64,000 nt of DNA from Bradyrhizobium sp. B097 (GTDB lineage Bacteria > Pseudomonadota > Alphaproteobacteria > Rhizobiales > Xanthobacteraceae): positions 6,506,501 to 6,570,500 of the forward strand of contig NZ_CP152412.1 in NCBI RefSeq assembly GCF_038957035.1. The letters are read 5' to 3'. The translations under genes and the position numbers were made by a program. Below, one piece after another: positions 12,673-26,955 of this stretch (positions are counted from its first letter, which is position 1; every line of letters starts with the position of its first letter). Under the pieces are notes generated by a model that was not told the origin of the DNA, made no database searches, and was given only the letters and a program-made list of their open reading frames with translations.

Positions 12673-13350
12673 CTACGCAGCGAGCGCCTCCAGTACCGCG
12701 GCTGAATCGGTAACCCAACCAAAGATGCCGCCCTGGGCCTTGATCATCTTCAGGCCCATCTCGTGGAATTCCGGAAAATACGACGCGCAGCCGTCTGATA
12801 TCACGACGCAGCGATAGCCGCGGTCGTTGGCCTCGCGCACCGTGGTGTTGACGCAGACTTCGGTGGTGACGCCGCAGACCAAGAGATTCTCGATGCCGTA
12901 TTTCTGCAGGATGTCACCGAATTCGGTGGCGTAGAACGCGCCCTTGCCGGGTTTGTCGATCACGATCTCGCTGCCCAGCGGATAAAGCTCGGGGATGATG
13001 TCGTGCCCTGCTTCGCCGCGGATCAGGATCCGACCCATCGGCCCGGGATCGCCGATCCGCAATGACGGCGCACCGCGCTCGAGCTTCGCTGGCGGCGCGT
13101 CGGAGAGATCGGGCAGATGGCCCTCGCGGGTATGGACCACGAGCAGCCCGGCATCGCGCACCGCGGCGAGGACGGCGGCGATCGGTTGCACCGCGCGGGC
13201 GAGCTGGCTGACGTCGTTGCCGAGCGTCTCGCCGAAGCCCCCTCGCTCCATGAAATCGCGCTGCATGTCGATGATGACGAGCGCGGTCTTGCTCCAGTCG
13301 AGCGTGATCGGCGCCGGCTCCGCCGCGATTGTCCCGCTTGAATTCGCCAT
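12673..13350 (-). CDS. Cysteine hydrolase, isochorismatase-like (BiuH family)
   Basis: This 225-residue cytoplasmic amidohydrolase has the three catalytic elements of the family: Asp in [11 protein letters not shown], Lys in [14 protein letters not shown], and the nucleophilic Cys in [11 protein letters not shown]. It resembles biuret/triuret amidohydrolases and the second copy at 23561-24244, sharing GDPGP-GRIL-RGE-G-DIIPEL and NDRGY. The likely reaction is hydrolysis of a small ureide or amide with ammonia release; the exact substrate is unassigned. It is divergent from formamidase. A near-perfect sigma-54 box (13390-13405) lies about 40 bases upstream, pointing to nitrogen-limitation control. 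Confidence 0.82.
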
Positions 13351-13389
13351 GACGCACGCCCCGAATGCGAGAAGACCTGCACCTGATCA

Positions 13390-13405
13390 AGCAAACCGCG
13401 TGCCA
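13390..13405 (-). promoter_or_regulatory. Sigma-54 promoter for the cysteine hydrolase gene
   Basis: On the minus strand this reads TGGCACGCGGTTTGCT, matching the RpoN consensus TGGCACG-N4-TTGCW with the required GG-N10-GC spacing. Transcription would start near 13378, about 28 bases before the ATG at 13350. The palindrome CATTGCGCAATG (13404-13415) abuts the -24 element. Confidence 0.85.
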
Positions 13406-13541
13406 TTGCGCAATGATGCGGCTTGTGCCCTCAACCGCCCGAAACGTCCGGCATCTCAATCTGTTGGGACACGCTCGGCCGTTCTCCGCGCCATCGTCCC
13501 CGGTTCTCACCGGCACCTGATTTGCCGGTCGTTCGATCTTG

Positions 13542-13557
13542 CTGGCATGATCGTTGC
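13542..13557 (+). promoter_or_regulatory. Sigma-54 promoter for formamidase
   Basis: TGGCATGATCGTTGCT fits TGGCAYG-N4-TTGCW with GG-N10-GC spacing. The expected transcript start near 13568 gives a leader of about 75 bases before ATG 13644. A second, weaker GG-N10-GC match (CGGCACCTGATTTGC) lies just upstream at 13510-13524. Confidence 0.8.
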
Positions 13558-13643
13558 TAGCTAAGGGCCGGACGGGAGCCGGACCGAACGACGACAATCG
13601 TTCGCGAAATGACAGCCCAATTCAAACAGGCGGGAGGACAGGC

Positions 13644-14657
13644 ATGAATGGACTTGGCGGTCTCAACAAGTCACCCAATGGCGTCGTGATCGGACTGGTG
13701 CAGCTGCAGCTGCCCGTGGTGGCGACCAAGGCCGATCTGGCGCGGCAGACCGAGCGCATCGTCTGGATGGTCGGCAAGGCACGGCGCAATCTCGGCACCA
13801 TGGATCTGGTCGTATTCCCGGAATATTCGCTGCACGGTCTCTCGATGGATACCAATCCGGAGATCATGTGCCGGCTCGACGGCCCCGAAGTCGCGGCCTT
13901 CAAGCAGGCCTGCATCGACAACAAGATCTGGGGCTGCTTCTCCATCATGGAGTTCAACCCGCACGGCAACCCCTACAATTCAGGGCTGATCATCGACGAT
14001 CACGGCGAGATCAAGCTCTATTACCGCAAATTCCATCCCTGGATTCCGGTCGAGCCGTGGGAGCCGGGCGATGTCGGCATTCCCGTGATCGACGGACCGA
14101 AAGGCGCGAAGATCGCACTGATCATCTGCCATGACGGCATGTTCCCGGAGATGGCGCGCGAATGTGCCTACAAGGGCGCGGAGATCATGATCCGCACCGC
14201 AGGCTACACTGCGCCGATCCGCGACAGCTGGCGCTTCACCAACCAGGCCAACGCCTTCCAGAACCTGATGGTGACGGCCAATGTCTGCATGTGCGGCTCG
14301 GACGGGTCGTTCGACTCGATGGGCGAAGGCATGATCGTCAATTTCGACGGCAGCATCATCGCGCACGGCACCACGGGGCGCGCCGACGAGATCATCACCG
14401 CCGAGGTGCGGCCCGACCTCGTGCGCGAGGCGCGGATCAACTGGGGCGTCGAGAACAACATCTATCAGCTCTGGCACCGCGGCTATGTCGCGGTGAAGGG
14501 CGGCGCGATGGATTGCCCCTACACCTTCATGCAGGACATGGTGTCCGGCCGCTTCCGCCTGCCCTGGGAAGATCAGGTCAAGATCACCGACGGCACGTCC
14601 TGCGGTTTTCCCGCACCGACACGGATGTTCGGCAAGACCGCGAAGGCCGCCGAGTAG
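13644..14657 (+). CDS. amiF: Formamidase
   Basis: This 337-residue enzyme of the nitrilase superfamily, aliphatic amidase branch, hydrolyses formamide to formate and ammonia in the cytoplasm. The catalytic triad is visible: Glu in VVFPEYSLHG, Lys in LYYRKFHPW, and Cys in LIICHDGMFPE. The motifs GCFSIMEFNP, ENNIYQLWHRGYVA and LPWEDQVKI follow formamidase (AmiF) closely. Length equals the family norm (~335). ATG 13644 is preceded by GGGAGG at 13632. The sigma-54 box upstream suggests expression under nitrogen limitation. The neighbouring gene is a divergent cysteine hydrolase. Confidence 0.93.
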   Translation: MNGLGGLNKSPNGVVIGLVQLQLPVVATKADLARQTERIVWMVGKARRNLGTMDLVVFPEYSLHGLSMDTNPEIMCRLDGPEVAAFKQACIDNKIWGCFSIMEFNPHGNPYNSGLIIDDHGEIKLYYRKFHPWIPVEPWEPGDVGIPVIDGPKGAKIALIICHDGMFPEMARECAYKGAEIMIRTAGYTAPIRDSWRFTNQANAFQNLMVTANVCMCGSDGSFDSMGEGMIVNFDGSIIAHGTTGRADEIITAEVRPDLVREARINWGVENNIYQLWHRGYVAVKGGAMDCPYTFMQDMVSGRFRLPWEDQVKITDGTSCGFPAPTRMFGKTAKAAE

Positions 14658-18762: not shown

Positions 18763-20046
18763 TCAGATATGCACTGCAACGTGCGGACGAAAACTCTCGA
18801 CGAAGCGCAGCAGCACCCGCGCGCCGGTGTCGGCGTCGGCGAGCTCAACATGCTCGGCCGGATTGTGGCTGATCCCGCCGCGGCAGCGCACGAAGATCAT
18901 GCCGATGTCAGCGACGTCGACCATCGCCATGCCGTCATGGCCGGCCCCGCTCGGCAGGTCGAATACGGCATGGCCCTCGGCTGCGACCGCCTCGGCGATC
19001 TGCGCTTTCAGCCATGGCGCGCAGGGCACGCTGCGGTTCTCGTGGGTGACGTCGATCTGCAAGGCCAGCTCGCGGCGCTTTGCGATCGCCTCGATCTGCC
19101 GCACGATGTCGGCGACGGCGCGCTTGCGATGCATGTCGCTCTGCGAGCGGATGTCCATCGTGAACGACACCTTGCCTGGGATTACGTTGGTGGCACCCGG
19201 CATGGCGCTGATGTAGCCGACGGTGCCGACGAGGCCGGCTTCATCGCTCCTGCAGAATTGCTCGATCGCAACGATGCATTCGGCGGCGCCGGTCAGCGCA
19301 TCGCGCCGCAGCGGCATTGGCACCGTGCCGGCATGGCCGGCGACGCCGGTGAGATTGGCGGCAAGCCGGGTCGCGCCTGAAATCGCGGTGACGACGCCGA
19401 CCGGCAGCGCCTTCTGTTCCAGCACGGGGCCCTGCTCGATGTGCAGCTCGACATAGCCGAGCAGCTCGCGGCGGGCGCGCGCCGCCTTGCCGATATGATC
19501 GGGATCGAGCCCGAAGGCGACCAGCGCATCGCGCATCGACGTGCCGGCGCGATCGCGGGTGTTGAGCACGCTCTCGTCGAACGTGCCGGCCACCGCGCGG
19601 CTGCCGAGCAGGGTCGACGCAAAGCGCACGCCCTCCTCGTCGGCAAAGCCCACGATCTCGATCGCGAACGGCAACCGCTTACCGCGCCGGTTCAGATCGG
19701 CGACACAGGCGATCGCGGTGATGACGCCGAGCGGACCGTCCCATCTGCCGGCATCGCGCACGGTGTCGTAATGCGAGCCGAGCATCAGGGCCGGCAGGCC
19801 CGGCCGCTCGCCCTCGTAGCGGCCGCAGACATTGCCGATCGCATCGAGGTGCGCGCTCATGCCGGCCTCGCGCATCCAGGACAGGATGAGATCGGCCGCC
19901 CTGCGATGCTCGTCGGTGAGGAAGACGCGCGCCAGATGCTCGGGCGTCTCCGAGATCGCCGCGAGCTGATCGATCCGCGCCACGATCTCGTCGCCAAGGG
20001 AAGATGGATTCGAGGACGATTTCTTCTCGCTCATGCTGTTTCCCAT
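18763..20046 (-). CDS. allC: Allantoate amidohydrolase (M20/hydantoinase-carbamoylase family)
   Basis: This 427-residue cytoplasmic metalloenzyme would hydrolyse allantoate with release of ammonia and CO2, giving ureidoglycine or ureidoglycolate. Metal-site motifs are complete: GSHYDTV, DGPLGV, DEEGVRF, HIEQGP and the C-terminal RGGISHNPAEH. GVAGHAGT and GYISAMPGATNVIPG match allantoate amidohydrolases better than N-carbamoyl amino-acid hydrolases, though the latter cannot be excluded. ATG 20034 (MSEKKSS) is an alternative start. It is divergent from the BMP transporter operon. PuuE allantoinase is encoded at 26 kb, giving consecutive steps of allantoin breakdown. Confidence 0.85.
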   Translation of the reverse strand: MGNSMSEKKSSSNPSSLGDEIVARIDQLAAISETPEHLARVFLTDEHRRAADLILSWMREAGMSAHLDAIGNVCGRYEGERPGLPALMLGSHYDTVRDAGRWDGPLGVITAIACVADLNRRGKRLPFAIEIVGFADEEGVRFASTLLGSRAVAGTFDESVLNTRDRAGTSMRDALVAFGLDPDHIGKAARARRELLGYVELHIEQGPVLEQKALPVGVVTAISGATRLAANLTGVAGHAGTVPMPLRRDALTGAAECIVAIEQFCRSDEAGLVGTVGYISAMPGATNVIPGKVSFTMDIRSQSDMHRKRAVADIVRQIEAIAKRRELALQIDVTHENRSVPCAPWLKAQIAEAVAAEGHAVFDLPSGAGHDGMAMVDVADIGMIFVRCRGGISHNPAEHVELADADTGARVLLRFVESFRPHVAVHI

Positions 20047-20396
20047 CGGTCCAGCCCGGCGCCTGGGCCCGCTTCACTCGTAGCAGGCCCGGTCCGATTC
20101 ACCAGCCGGCAAATGGCCCGCCCCCGCCGGGGCTCGCATCGGCCGTCCAGGGGTTAGCGACTGCTTAACGGCATTGCATACAACGACGATCGATCGCTCA
20201 CCAAATAGGCAATCCGGAATCTGCCGATTCCGAAGGCCGCCCATGTTGATTACTATTCACATTCATATTCAGTCACTTACAGAACCATGACCGCCAAATG
20301 TGCTCTGGCACGAAGCTTGCGACACTCCGTCACGCGCCGCTGTTACGGCGGCTGCGACAAGGACAGGCGGGTCGGCCCCGCCGGAGGGAGCAGGCG
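20047..20396. other. Divergent control region of allC and the BMP transporter operon
   Basis: This 350-base spacer has no gene. It contains a sigma-54 box at 20306-20320 facing the transporter operon and an AT-richer patch (20240-20285) suited to activator or IHF binding. No strong TGGCAC-type box faces allC, only a poor GG-N10-GC string. Confidence 0.7.
20306..20321 (+). promoter_or_regulatory. Sigma-54 promoter for the BMP transporter/BiuH operon
   Basis: TGGCACGAAGCTTGCG matches TGGCACG-N4-TTGCW except for the final base, with correct GG-N10-GC spacing. Transcription would begin near 20332, about 65 bases before ATG 20397. Confidence 0.85.
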
Positions 20397-21506
20397 ATGG
20401 ATTTTGGCAGGATTTCAAGAAGGCATTTATTGCAGGGAAGCGCGGCATTGGCGCTCGGCAGCACGCTCGGCGTTCGCGGCGCGGCGGCAGCGGAAACCAC
20501 GGTCGGCTTCATCTATGTCGGGTCGCGCGACGACTATGGCTACAACCAGGCCCACGCCCAGGGCGCGGCGGCGCTGAAGAAGCTTCCCGGCATCAAGGTG
20601 GTCGAGGAAGAGAAGGTGCCGGAGACCGACGCGGTCGAGAAGACCATCGAGTCCATGATCAATCTCGATGGCGCCACGCTGCTGTTTCCGACCTCGTTCG
20701 GCTACTACAACCCACACGTCGTCAAGATGGCGGGCAAGTTTCCGAAGATGCATTTCGAGCATTGCGGCGGCCTGTGGTCCGACAAGGACCCGAAGAACGC
20801 CGGCAGCTATTTCGGCTACATCGACGAGGCGCAATATATCTCCGGCATCGTCGCCGGCTATTCGACCAAGAGCGGCAAGCTCGGCTTCGTCGCGGCCAAG
20901 CCGATCCCGCAGGTGCTGCGCAACATCAACGCGTTCACGCTCGGCGCCCGGCTCGCCAATCCGAAGGCGACGACGCAGGTGATCTTCACCGGCGACTGGT
21001 CGATGCCGGTCAAGGAAGCCGAGGCGACCAACAGCCTGATCGACCAGGACGTCGATGTGCTGACCTGCCATGTCGACGGACCGAAGACGATGGTCGAGAA
21101 CGCCGCGCGCCGTGGCGCGATGGTATGCGGCTATCACGTCAATCAGTCGCCGCTGGCGCCGAAGGCCTATCTCACCGGCGCCGAGTGGAACTGGGAAGCG
21201 CTCTATCCGAAGTTCGTCAAGATGATCACCGCGGGCGAAGCGATCCCGAACTTCTACCGCGGCGGCCTGAAGGAAGAGATTGTCAAGGTCTCGCCCTATG
21301 GCGAGATGGTCTCTGCGGAAGCCCGCAAGCATGCCGACGACGTCAAGGCCAAGTTCATGTCCGGCGAGTACGCGATCTTCAAGGGCCCGCTGGTGGACAA
21401 CAAGGGCAAGACGGTGATCGCTTCCGGCACCGACCGCGGCCAGCAGGATCCCGAGCTCGAAAAGATGGACTATCTGGTCGAGGGCGTGATCGGAGCCACC
21501 GCGTGA
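20397..21506 (+). CDS. BMP family ABC transporter substrate-binding protein
   Basis: This is a 369-residue periplasmic binding protein of the BMP/Med (nucleoside-binding-like) family. The N-terminus has a twin-arginine-type signal (ISRRHLLQGSAALALGS). The mature part shows TVGFIYVGSRDDYGYNQAH, FEHCGG and ISGIVAGYSTKSGKLGFVAA, all family hallmarks. ATG 20397 follows GGAGGGAG (20383-20390). Relatives bind purine nucleosides or ureides; here the linked BiuH-like hydrolase, AllC and PuuE suggest a ureide or related nitrogen compound. It is the first gene of a five-gene operon downstream of a sigma-54 box. Confidence 0.9.
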   Translation: MDFGRISRRHLLQGSAALALGSTLGVRGAAAAETTVGFIYVGSRDDYGYNQAHAQGAAALKKLPGIKVVEEEKVPETDAVEKTIESMINLDGATLLFPTSFGYYNPHVVKMAGKFPKMHFEHCGGLWSDKDPKNAGSYFGYIDEAQYISGIVAGYSTKSGKLGFVAAKPIPQVLRNINAFTLGARLANPKATTQVIFTGDWSMPVKEAEATNSLIDQDVDVLTCHVDGPKTMVENAARRGAMVCGYHVNQSPLAPKAYLTGAEWNWEALYPKFVKMITAGEAIPNFYRGGLKEEIVKVSPYGEMVSAEARKHADDVKAKFMSGEYAIFKGPLVDNKGKTVIASGTDRGQQDPELEKMDYLVEGVIGATA

Positions 21507-23560: not shown

Positions 23561-24244
23561 ATGCCCGAGCGCTTCATCAAATCCGAGCCCTACGCCTGGC
23601 CCTACAATGGCGACCTGCGACCGCAGAATACCGCGCTCATCATCATCGACATGCAGACCGATTTCTGCGGCGTCGGCGGCTATGTCGACAAGATTGGCTA
23701 CGATCTGTCGCTGACGCGGGCGCCGATCGAGCCGATCAAGAAGCTGCTCGCGGTGATGCGCGCGCAGGGTTTTCACATCATCCACACCCGCGAAGGCCAC
23801 CGCCCTGATTTGGCCGACCTGCCCGCCAACAAGCGCTGGCGCTCGCGCCAGATCGGCGCCGGCATCGGCGATCCCGGCCCGTGCGGCCGCATCCTGGTGC
23901 GCGGCGAGCCCGGCTGGGACATCATCCCCGATCTCGCGCCGCTGCCGGGCGAACCGATCATCGACAAGCCCGGCAAGGGCTCGTTCTGCGCCACCGACCT
24001 CGAGCTGATGCTGCGGCTGCGCGGCATCGAGAACATCGTGCTGACCGGCATCACCACCGACGTCTGCGTCCACACCACGATGCGCGAGGCCAATGACCGC
24101 GGCTTCGAATGCGTGCTGGTCGAGGATTGCTGCGGCGCGACCGACAGGAGCAACCACGACCACGCGCTGAAGATGATCAAGATGCAGGGCGGCGTGTTCG
24201 GCGCGGTGGCGAAATCCGCCGACCTGATCGGAGCGCTGTCGTGA
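23561..24244 (+). CDS. biuH: Biuret amidohydrolase-like cysteine hydrolase
   Basis: This 227-residue protein is close to the characterised rhizobial biuret amidohydrolase (biuret + H2O to allophanate + NH3). From memory, the shared stretches include [35 protein letters not shown] residues and [21 protein letters not shown]. Catalytic residues are Asp in IIIDMQTDF, Lys in DKPGKGSF and Cys in TTDVCVHTT. It is embedded between permease and ATPase genes of an importer, so substrate uptake and hydrolysis are co-expressed. The true substrate could be another ureide. No allophanate hydrolase is visible in this window. Confidence 0.85.
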
Positions 24245-25779: not shown

Positions 25780-26019
25780 CTTGCCCAGGATGAATTTTGA
25801 TTGAATCAGCCGAGCCGCAGACTCGTTTCGCCTCTCCCGCTTGCGGGGGAGGCCGACGCGCGACGAGCGACGCGAAGCGTCGTCCGTAGCGCGGCGGGTG
25901 GGGGCTCTCTCTGCGATGGGATTCGCGGCAATACCCCCACCCCAGCCCTCCCCCGCAAGCGGGAGAGGGAGCGCAGTGTCCTTGCGGTCGCCAGCTCAAC
26001 CTGACTTCATCTTGCTCTA
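25780..26019. repeat. Intergenic mosaic inverted repeat, copy B
   Basis: An element between the ATPase and puuE genes. An inner stem of CCTCTCCCGCTTGCGGG type (25831-25852) pairs with its reverse complement (about 25946-25968). Outer ends resemble GGATGAATTTTGATTGAATC and its inverted partner ending TTGCTCTA. The terminal CTA (26017-26019) is the TAG stop of puuE. Copy C (39725) shares the same inner stem. Confidence 0.7.
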
Positions 26020-26955
26020 CCCGATCTCGAACGCCTGCGCGGCGAGATGCTTCAGATTGGCGTGCCAGTGCTCGGCGATCTGAAGCCGGGTCGGCACCCA
26101 GACCCGTTCGTGCTTCTGGATGTAGTCGAGGAAGCGCATCAGCGCGGCGGCGCGGCCGGGACGGCCGACGACGCGGCAATGCAGGCCGACCGACATCATC
26201 TTGGGTGACGTCGCGCCCTCGGCGTAGAGCACGTCGAAGCTGTCCTTCAGATAGGCGTAGAACTCATCGCCACCGCCAAAACCCTGCGGGTTGATGAAGC
26301 GCATGTCGTTGGCATCGAGCGCGTAGGGGATCACGAGATGCGGCTCGGTGCCGGCTGCCTTGATCCAGTACGGCAGATCGTCGGCATAGGAATCGCAGAG
26401 ATAGCGCAGGCCGCCCGCCTGCATCAGGAGCCGCAGCGTGTTGATCGAGGAACGGCCGGTGTACCAGCCGAGCGGCCGCGCGCCGGTCGCCTCGGTATGC
26501 ACGGCGATGGCGCGAGCGATCTCCGCGCGCTCCTCGTCCTCCGACATGTCCTTGTGCTCGACCCAGCGCAGGCTGTGGCTTGCGATATCCCAGCCCGCCT
26601 CCTGCATCGCCGCGACCACATCCGGATTGCGCTTCAGCGCCATCGCGACGCCGAACACCGTGGCTGGCAGCTTGCGCTCGGTGAACATCCGCCACAGCCG
26701 CCAGAAGCCGGCGCGCGAGCCATATTCGAACATGGTTTCGATATTGGCGTGACGCTGGCCGACCCAGGGCTGCGCACCCAGCACATCGGACAGGAACGCT
26801 TCCGAGGCACGATCGCCGTGCAGGATGTTGTTCTCGCCGCCCTCCTCGAAATTGACCACGAACTGCACGGCGACGCGTGCGGCGTCGGGCCATTTCGGAT
26901 CGGGCGGCGTGCGGCCGTAGCCGCGGAGATCGCGCGGATAGCGGGCCTCGGTCAC
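26017..26955 (-). CDS. puuE: Allantoinase, PuuE type (NodB-fold)
   Basis: This 312-residue enzyme of the polysaccharide-deacetylase-like, metal-independent allantoinase family opens allantoin to allantoate in the cytoplasm. Family motifs are GYGRTPPDPKWP, VNFEEGGENNILHGD, WRLWRMFTERKLPATVFGVA and HSLRWVEHKD. The GTG start (26955) lies one base after the TGA of the upstream DUF3830 gene, so the two are one operon. With allC it provides two consecutive steps. The TAG stop is contributed by repeat copy B. Confidence 0.9.
   Translation of the reverse strand: MTEARYPRDLRGYGRTPPDPKWPDAARVAVQFVVNFEEGGENNILHGDRASEAFLSDVLGAQPWVGQRHANIETMFEYGSRAGFWRLWRMFTERKLPATVFGVAMALKRNPDVVAAMQEAGWDIASHSLRWVEHKDMSEDEERAEIARAIAVHTEATGARPLGWYTGRSSINTLRLLMQAGGLRYLCDSYADDLPYWIKAAGTEPHLVIPYALDANDMRFINPQGFGGGDEFYAYLKDSFDVLYAEGATSPKMMSVGLHCRVVGRPGRAAALMRFLDYIQKHERVWVPTRLQIAEHWHANLKHLAAQAFEIG

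Follow-up and report, generated by a model that had tools for sequence, protein, structure and literature searches.

Divergent RpoN-type promoters between two hydrolase genes

The window, by which we mean the whole 64,000-nucleotide stretch of Bradyrhizobium sp. B097 that was analyzed, contains two divergently transcribed hydrolase genes separated by a short intergenic region. The features of this region are as follows.

12673-13350, minus strand: trtA-like gene for a probable triuret hydrolase, an isochorismatase-like cysteine hydrolase of 225 aa, named from its structural relatives and residues
13390-13405, minus strand: predicted sigma-54 -24/-12 promoter of trtA, TGGCACGCGGTTTGCT, from exact consensus match, genome rarity, and conservation
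13404-13415, no strand: palindrome CATTGCGCAATG with core TTGCGCAA, overlapping the trtA -24 element at the position of the conserved putative operator ATTGTACACAAT
13510-13528, no strand: perfect dyad CCGGCA-N7-TGCCGG, found once in the window and containing an ATTTGC
13543-13558, plus strand: predicted sigma-54 -24/-12 promoter of formamidase, TGGCATGATCGTTGCT, from exact consensus match, genome rarity, and conservation
13644-14657, plus strand: formamidase gene, 337 aa, CN_hydrolase family (NF009803, 584 bits against a cut-off of 406; PF00795)

The initial annotation had proposed two RpoN-type elements with GG-N10-GC spacing, and both are exact matches to TGGCAY-N5-TTGCW. Its coordinates for the minus-strand element (13390-13405) are right; those for the plus-strand element are one base off, the site being 13543-13558 and not 13542-13557. 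The elements end 39 bp before the hydrolase start and 85 bp before the formamidase start. The genome-wide motif scan that had been suggested as a measure of rarity returned 41 exact matches to TGGCAYNNNNNTTGCW in 9,252,481 bases; the pattern reversed as a control gave 3. At up to two mismatches the window shows no excess (41 matches versus 46 expected), and the perfect ones are just these two. A single match to Sigma54_AID in the genome indicates that RpoN is present. Rarity in the genome, together with the conservation described below, thus supports the proposal of divergent sigma-54 promoters before two nitrogen-releasing hydrolases. That both elements represent genuine RpoN promoters, for triuret hydrolase and formamidase, is well supported on sequence grounds; co-induction of the pair under nitrogen limitation through RpoN is likely, and direct NtrC control of it is unproven.

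On the formamidase side, RTTTGC is found 21-23 bp before the -24 element in seven of eight sigma-54 formamidase promoters, one of these without trtA, and the element that holds it may be the mark of another regulator. A locally encoded enhancer-binding protein was sought and rejected as a candidate: the genome has 17 Sigma54_activat matches, 10 of them strong, and none lies in the window.

A probable triuret hydrolase and a biuret hydrolase in the same window

The product of 12673-13350 had been described as a BiuH-like cysteine hydrolase. Its best solved relatives are 6XIX (284 bits) and 6XJ4 (279 bits), with BiuH entries reaching 229 bits at best; the available passages of PMC7948467 describe 6XIX and 6XJ4 as the triuret hydrolase TrtA of Herbaspirillum. 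To transfer the residue positions published there for TrtA, the numbering was offset by 4, with the aligned catalytic Asp as anchor; all 13 positions checked match in the window protein, the catalytic D, K, and C included. Six of the 13 distinguish TrtA from BiuH, and at all six the protein is of the TrtA type; with a score of 262 bits on the NCBIfam BiuH model, below the cut-off of 370, a BiuH identity was rejected. The enzyme is therefore TrtA-like by residues and solved relatives, and probably a triuret hydrolase (TrtA).

The true BiuH of the cluster is encoded elsewhere in the window, behind a third sigma-54 promoter.

20196-20210, no strand: NtrC-type dyad GCTCACCAAATAGGC, lying 110 bp upstream of the 20306 promoter; no other exact GCYYA-N5-TRRGC occurs in the window
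20306-20321, plus strand: predicted sigma-54 promoter TGGCACGAAGCTTGCG, one mismatch, preceding the BMP transporter-biuH gene cluster
20397-21506, plus strand: gene for a BMP-type ABC transporter substrate-binding protein, start placed by eye (PF02608, 131 bits on 20391-21506)
23561-24244, plus strand: biuH, biuret hydrolase, start placed by eye, identified from the BiuH model, structures, and residues

In this cluster biuH lies downstream of the 20306 promoter, after the BMP-type transporter genes. Its product scores 389 bits on NF050097 (cut-off 370; on 23630-24244) and 420 bits against the BiuH structure 6AZO, with 416 bits against 6AZN/6AZQ (frame from 23552); it is of the BiuH type at all six discriminating positions. 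The TrtA and BiuH of the window share 111 identical residues out of 224 aligned. The cluster is flanked by an allantoate amidohydrolase-type gene (18763-20046) and by an allantoinase gene (26017-26955), the latter named by eye from its likeness to the PuuE of locus L062; allantoate and allantoin genes beside biuH would fit an origin of triuret in the oxidation of uric acid.

Conservation of the promoters in relatives

A scan of GTDB genomes for trtA relatives gave at least 567 confirmed matches, of which the best 80 loci were kept. The 34 closest among the matches listed (L055-L088) come from Bradyrhizobium, Rhodopseudomonas, Afipia, and one Xanthobacteraceae MAG, and 33 of these 34 have an exact sigma-54 element that starts 54-100 bp before the aligned start; the one exception is L088, which has no exact element. 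Among the other 46 of the best 80 loci, a same-strand element within 450 bp and with at most one mismatch is present at 19 and missing from 27; the actinobacterial loci L116, L125, L128, and L131 belong to the latter.

A search for formamidase in 60 genomes of the genus yielded 23 close orthologs (L135-L157). Exact sigma-54 elements are present on both sides in all seven divergent trtA-formamidase pairs among them, the window included, and in just one of the 16 formamidase loci without adjacent trtA (L155) does a sigma-54 element occur within 300 bp. Two further pairs from the GTDB scan (L055 and L056) have both elements. The gap between the paired elements is 137 bp in the window and 32, 57, 80, 124, 129, and 171 bp in the other six. 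Because both elements are retained although the gap varies in length, and because 33 of the 34 trtA loci among the matches listed keep theirs, promoter conservation exceeds what chance would give. In one genome (L152, G011) the trtA and formamidase elements are only 32 bp apart, with almost no space for a separate enhancer.

Several neighborhoods show features of their own. In L046, L035, and L045, sigma-54 promoters precede a dctA-like transporter gene (named by eye from the start of the protein) that is divergent from trtA or lies just after formamidase, hinting at a link to DctD or C4-dicarboxylates. Sigma-54-like elements also stand before trtA relatives of methylotrophs (L094, L098, L119), with a recurrent TTGTTGTAT after the -12, and of Ancylobacter (L114, L127, L133), with a recurrent TGCATACA over and after the -12; these sequences are perhaps the site of another regulator. 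A membrane-looking protein of ∼550 aa (family F1; e.g., L066:8689-10338) follows trtA in 32 of the 40 neighborhoods compared. One representative had no match in Pfam or NCBIfam, and the permease-like gene was not found in the strain B097 genome in a search that had no positive control; the F1 protein is a candidate importer of triuret or a ureide.

A putative operator abutting the -24 element

The palindrome beside the trtA promoter had been read as part of an enhancer site, a role that its position speaks against: it overlaps the -24 element and occupies the place where ATTGTACACAAT abuts -24 in relatives. For comparison we used 34 trtA promoters, namely the window and the loci with an exact element (L055-L087; L088 was left out). 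Among these, which derive from the matches listed, ATTGTACACAAT stands beside the -24 in 28 of 34, with 26 exact copies and 2 with one mismatch; the window, L055, L056, L061, L086, and L087 are 4-9 mismatches away. In the operator place the window trtA has ATTGCGCAAT, with 6 mismatches in register, and thus no canonical operator. Since CATTGCGCAATG stands at this position and its core is shorter by two bases than that of ATTGTACACAAT, it looks like an altered operator and not an enhancer, and is probably a degenerate form of ATTGTACACAAT. Its symmetry is not retained in all near relatives, one of which (L138) has TTGCGTAA.

Across 30 genomes, ATTGTACACAAT occurs at 37 places in 26 of them; its reversed control occurs in none of the 30. 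Thirty of the 37 loci were fetched, and in 27 the sequence abuts a -24 element, 16 times before trtA (called by tblastn) and 11 times before an AtzF-type amidase gene (called mostly by eye; a model or the strain's own AtzF served as reference for 4 of the 11). The remaining three copies (L168, L180, L187) have no abutting -24. The strain B097 genome holds a single copy, exact, before a full-length atzF whose product reaches 868 bits with the NCBI model, for which the cut-off is 487.

The gene that adjoins this atzF, in convergent orientation, encodes an FCD-type GntR protein (PF07729, 102 bits; PF00392, 56 bits). It comes after one gene of the atzE family and another that is small and resembles atzH (PF11533; HpxZ in NCBI's model). 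Orthologs of the regulator (E ≤1e-60) are present in 29 of the 30 genomes, and at each of the 11 AtzF-type operator loci the regulator gene shares the contig and is at most about 4 kb away; the order ABC-atzE-atzH-gntR with convergent atzF is kept in all four regions read. Genomes G017, G019, and G020 have the regulator and no exact operator. ATTGTACACAAT has the form ATTGT-N2-ACAAT, which is typical of GntR operators. From this form and from the gene neighborhood we infer that the FCD-GntR protein binds ATTGTACACAAT, which would then act as a repressor operator on sigma-54 promoters, by analogy with HutC at hutU. In those parts of the literature that were consulted on Bradyrhizobium biuret or allophanate, or on biuret with GntR, no regulator of this sort is mentioned.

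ATTGTACACAAT could instead be an extension of the sigma-54 promoter, or the site of another regulator, and no repressor site; its fusion to -24 in 27 of the 30 fetched cases would agree with this. We regard such a reading as unlikely. None of the other 40 exact sigma-54 sites in the strain B097 genome has this sequence, its one copy being that before atzF; where it abuts -24 it is common to two genes of one pathway, and it has the GntR-like form given above.

An NtrC-type dyad upstream of ureide promoters

The dyad GCYYA-N5-TRRGC lies upstream of 24 of the 34 trtA promoters (among the matches listed), 21 times at exactly 131 bp from the -24, and upstream of 9 of the 11 atzF promoters at 120-132 bp; the mean for shuffled sequences is 0.1. 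Such shuffle figures overstate the significance, because dyad and operator were counted only after they had been spotted by eye in sequences that are related and, for the dyad, non-independent. Fairer tests are the comparison of atzF with trtA, whose promoters are unrelated, and the scoring of the strain's own glnB and urtA, unseen when the pattern was formed, with a matrix built from the trtA and atzF sites of other genomes. This matrix gives 16.8 for glnB, 19.0 for urtA, and 15.8 for atzF; at the biuH operon it gives 16.5, the top score of the 64 kb. It was also run on 30 of the genome's 41 exact sigma-54 promoters, of which, atzF apart, the other 29 score at most 9.2.

Both glnB and urtA are classical nitrogen-control genes. 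As these genes carry the dyad, it can be read as an NtrC site; they also both appear in the RpoN table of strain DOA9 in the passages available (PMC13207237). The reading is one that we infer, since glnII and the other tested sigma-54 sites lack the dyad, and since a second UrtA-type gene (L233) and two other PII genes show no sigma-54 site. At glnII there is no dyad within 260 bp except a weak match (7.8) at 255 bp. Of seven loci looked at, five have no sigma-54 site (≤2 mismatches, 700 bp scanned): these two PII genes, L233, whose score is above the UrtA cut-off, and the genes of two urea-type binding proteins that are weaker matches. With the same qualification, the promoter of the biuH operon, which has the dyad, may be counted among the putative NtrC targets.

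Other upstream patterns were tried and rejected. NifA-type TGT-N10-ACA sites and strict GCAC-N7-GTGC each occur in none of the 34 trtA promoters (among the matches listed) and none of the 11 atzF promoters. The 17-base TGC-N11-GCA occurs in 9 of 34 and 6 of 11, respectively (shuffle 2.9 and 0.8; the 34 again being those among the matches listed), with no consistent site in the divergent regions.

The divergent pair itself differs from the dyad-bearing promoters. The initial annotation had held NtrC to be its probable activator, and NtrC could act directly on both promoters from intergenic sites, with the palindrome as part of the enhancer; the nitrogen-releasing products and the NtrC-type dyad at canonical relatives speak for this. 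We nevertheless think it improbable. No dyad within two mismatches occurs in 13351-13643, so that the pattern of glnB, urtA, atzF, and the biuH operon is absent here. A matrix that included the biuH dyad scores 17.9 there and at best -3.1 around the pair (12901-14100), and the other-genome matrix gives -1.6 at the pair against 16.5 at the biuH operon. An activator on the palindrome, which overlaps the -24, would compete with polymerase, and the promoters 32 bp apart in L152 leave little room. For biuret use elsewhere, the part of the source available (PMC5491218) reports improved and not impaired growth on biuret for an ntrC mutant of Burkholderia, which argues against biuret use in that organism being simply activated by NtrC.

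A model for ureide control in Bradyrhizobium

Our preferred explanation, which we hold to be quite probable as a whole, combines an RpoN-dependent promoter pair, a GntR operator and NtrC dyad at ureide genes, and the loss of both sites here. RpoN-dependent promoters in the intergenic region would transcribe trtA leftward and formamidase rightward. The Bradyrhizobium ureide set consists of trtA, atzF, and the biuH operon, whose predicted sigma-54 promoters mostly have an NtrC-type dyad ∼110-132 bp upstream; at trtA and atzF, the putative 12-bp operator ATTGTACACAAT is fused to the -24. The FCD-GntR protein encoded beside atzF would bind this operator, block Eσ54, and release it when a pathway compound is present, and full expression would need both nitrogen limitation, through an enhancer-binding protein that is probably NtrC, and substrate. 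In strain B097 and near relatives, the trtA promoter has neither canonical operator nor dyad and stands back to back with the formamidase promoter; the pair would still depend on RpoN while escaping GntR, and its activator would be either NtrC, acting in the absence of a strong site, or a different enhancer-binding protein. The -24/-12 elements, the assignment of trtA, the dyad-bearing ureide set, and the fusion of the putative operator to -24 draw their support from sequence together with conservation.

The lack of both operator and dyad sets the pair apart from most trtA relatives. As one trtA-formamidase pair (L148/L059) still has both, the loss belongs to part of the trtA-formamidase group. 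In its most specific form the explanation is tentative, and we would not put it at even odds: a ureide regulon would be held by two keys, FCD-GntR at the -24 of trtA and atzF and an NtrC dyad, mostly helically phased, 110-132 bp upstream, and both keys would have been discarded at trtA in the B097 clade, leaving bare back-to-back promoters that fire without a local NtrC-type enhancer or via another activator. A reading of the -24/-12 matches as random hits or as remnants without activity, which the lack of excess at two mismatches in the window could suggest, is very improbable and already disfavored, given 41 exact matches versus 3 and strict conservation while the spacer varies from 32 to 171 bp.

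The analysis ties the breakdown of triuret, biuret, and allophanate, known from enzymology, to a concrete candidate control circuit in Bradyrhizobium, a genus of major importance in soils and root nodules. Urea fertilizer contains triuret, according to the available passages of PMC7948467, so the timing of its use by bradyrhizobia bears on soil nitrogen. The analysis also offers a clear candidate for a repressor site that is fused to a sigma-54 promoter and would respond to substrate, and it suggests that one clade has lost this site.

Comparison with known systems

In Pseudomonas ADP, the atzR-atzDEF genes of the cyanuric acid/biuret pathway are governed by sigma-54 and NtrC, with a local repressor competing with sigma-54 polymerase; AtzR is of the LysR type. 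The points of likeness are the pathway, sigma-54, and, as putative counterparts here, NtrC and a local repressor in competition with polymerase; the regulator linked to the pathway here is an FCD-GntR protein. Nothing was found on AtzR with NtrC and cyanuric acid in the literature searched.

The window enzyme resembles the published TrtA (PMC7948467) in its catalytic and in all discriminating residues checked, and in the presence of a separate BiuH in the same genome. The passages of that paper to hand deal with the enzyme, not its regulation.

Expression data for strain DOA9 come from rpoN mutants grown under microaerobic, nitrogen-free conditions, in which atzF, atzE, glnII, glnB, urtA-D, and isochorismatase genes were lowered, as stated in the available part of PMC13207237. 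Table 1 there gives TGGCACGGCGCTTGC at -37 of isochorismatase gene 41390. This sequence is identical to eight trtA promoters (among the matches listed), which gives the DOA9 gene a trtA-type promoter; the same 15-mer also precedes an unrelated EF-hand gene in that table. A second entry, TGGCACGAAGCTTGC before gene 51382, is identical to the first 15 bases at window position 20306, and the DOA9 glnB promoter TGGCATAGACCCTGC is the same in the strain B097 genome (PMC13207237). Because weak motif matches are also in the table, as far as the source was available, it proves little alone. In the parts available, the account of the DOA9 RpoN regulon mentions neither an operator nor a part played by GntR, nor a formamidase gene in a divergent pair, and a term search of the main text found no formamidase (PMC13207237). 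A literature search for formamidase with sigma-54 and nitrogen limitation gave, in the portions retrieved, cyanide-wastewater work only; the main text of PMC4842269, as available, names none of these genes, and a term search of the available text of PMC4999443 found none of the relevant terms.

A parallel in arrangement is the hutU promoter of Pseudomonas, where the HutC footprint overlaps the sigma-54 site and the HutC site is TGTA-N2-TACA, as described in the available passages of PMC12977541. There too a nitrogen-source catabolic gene has a sigma-54 promoter overlapped by the site of a GntR-family repressor, with NtrC as activator. The regulator of hutU belongs to the HutC subfamily (PMC12977541), whereas the candidate here is an FCD-type GntR protein with the predicted site ATTGTACACAAT at triuret and allophanate genes.
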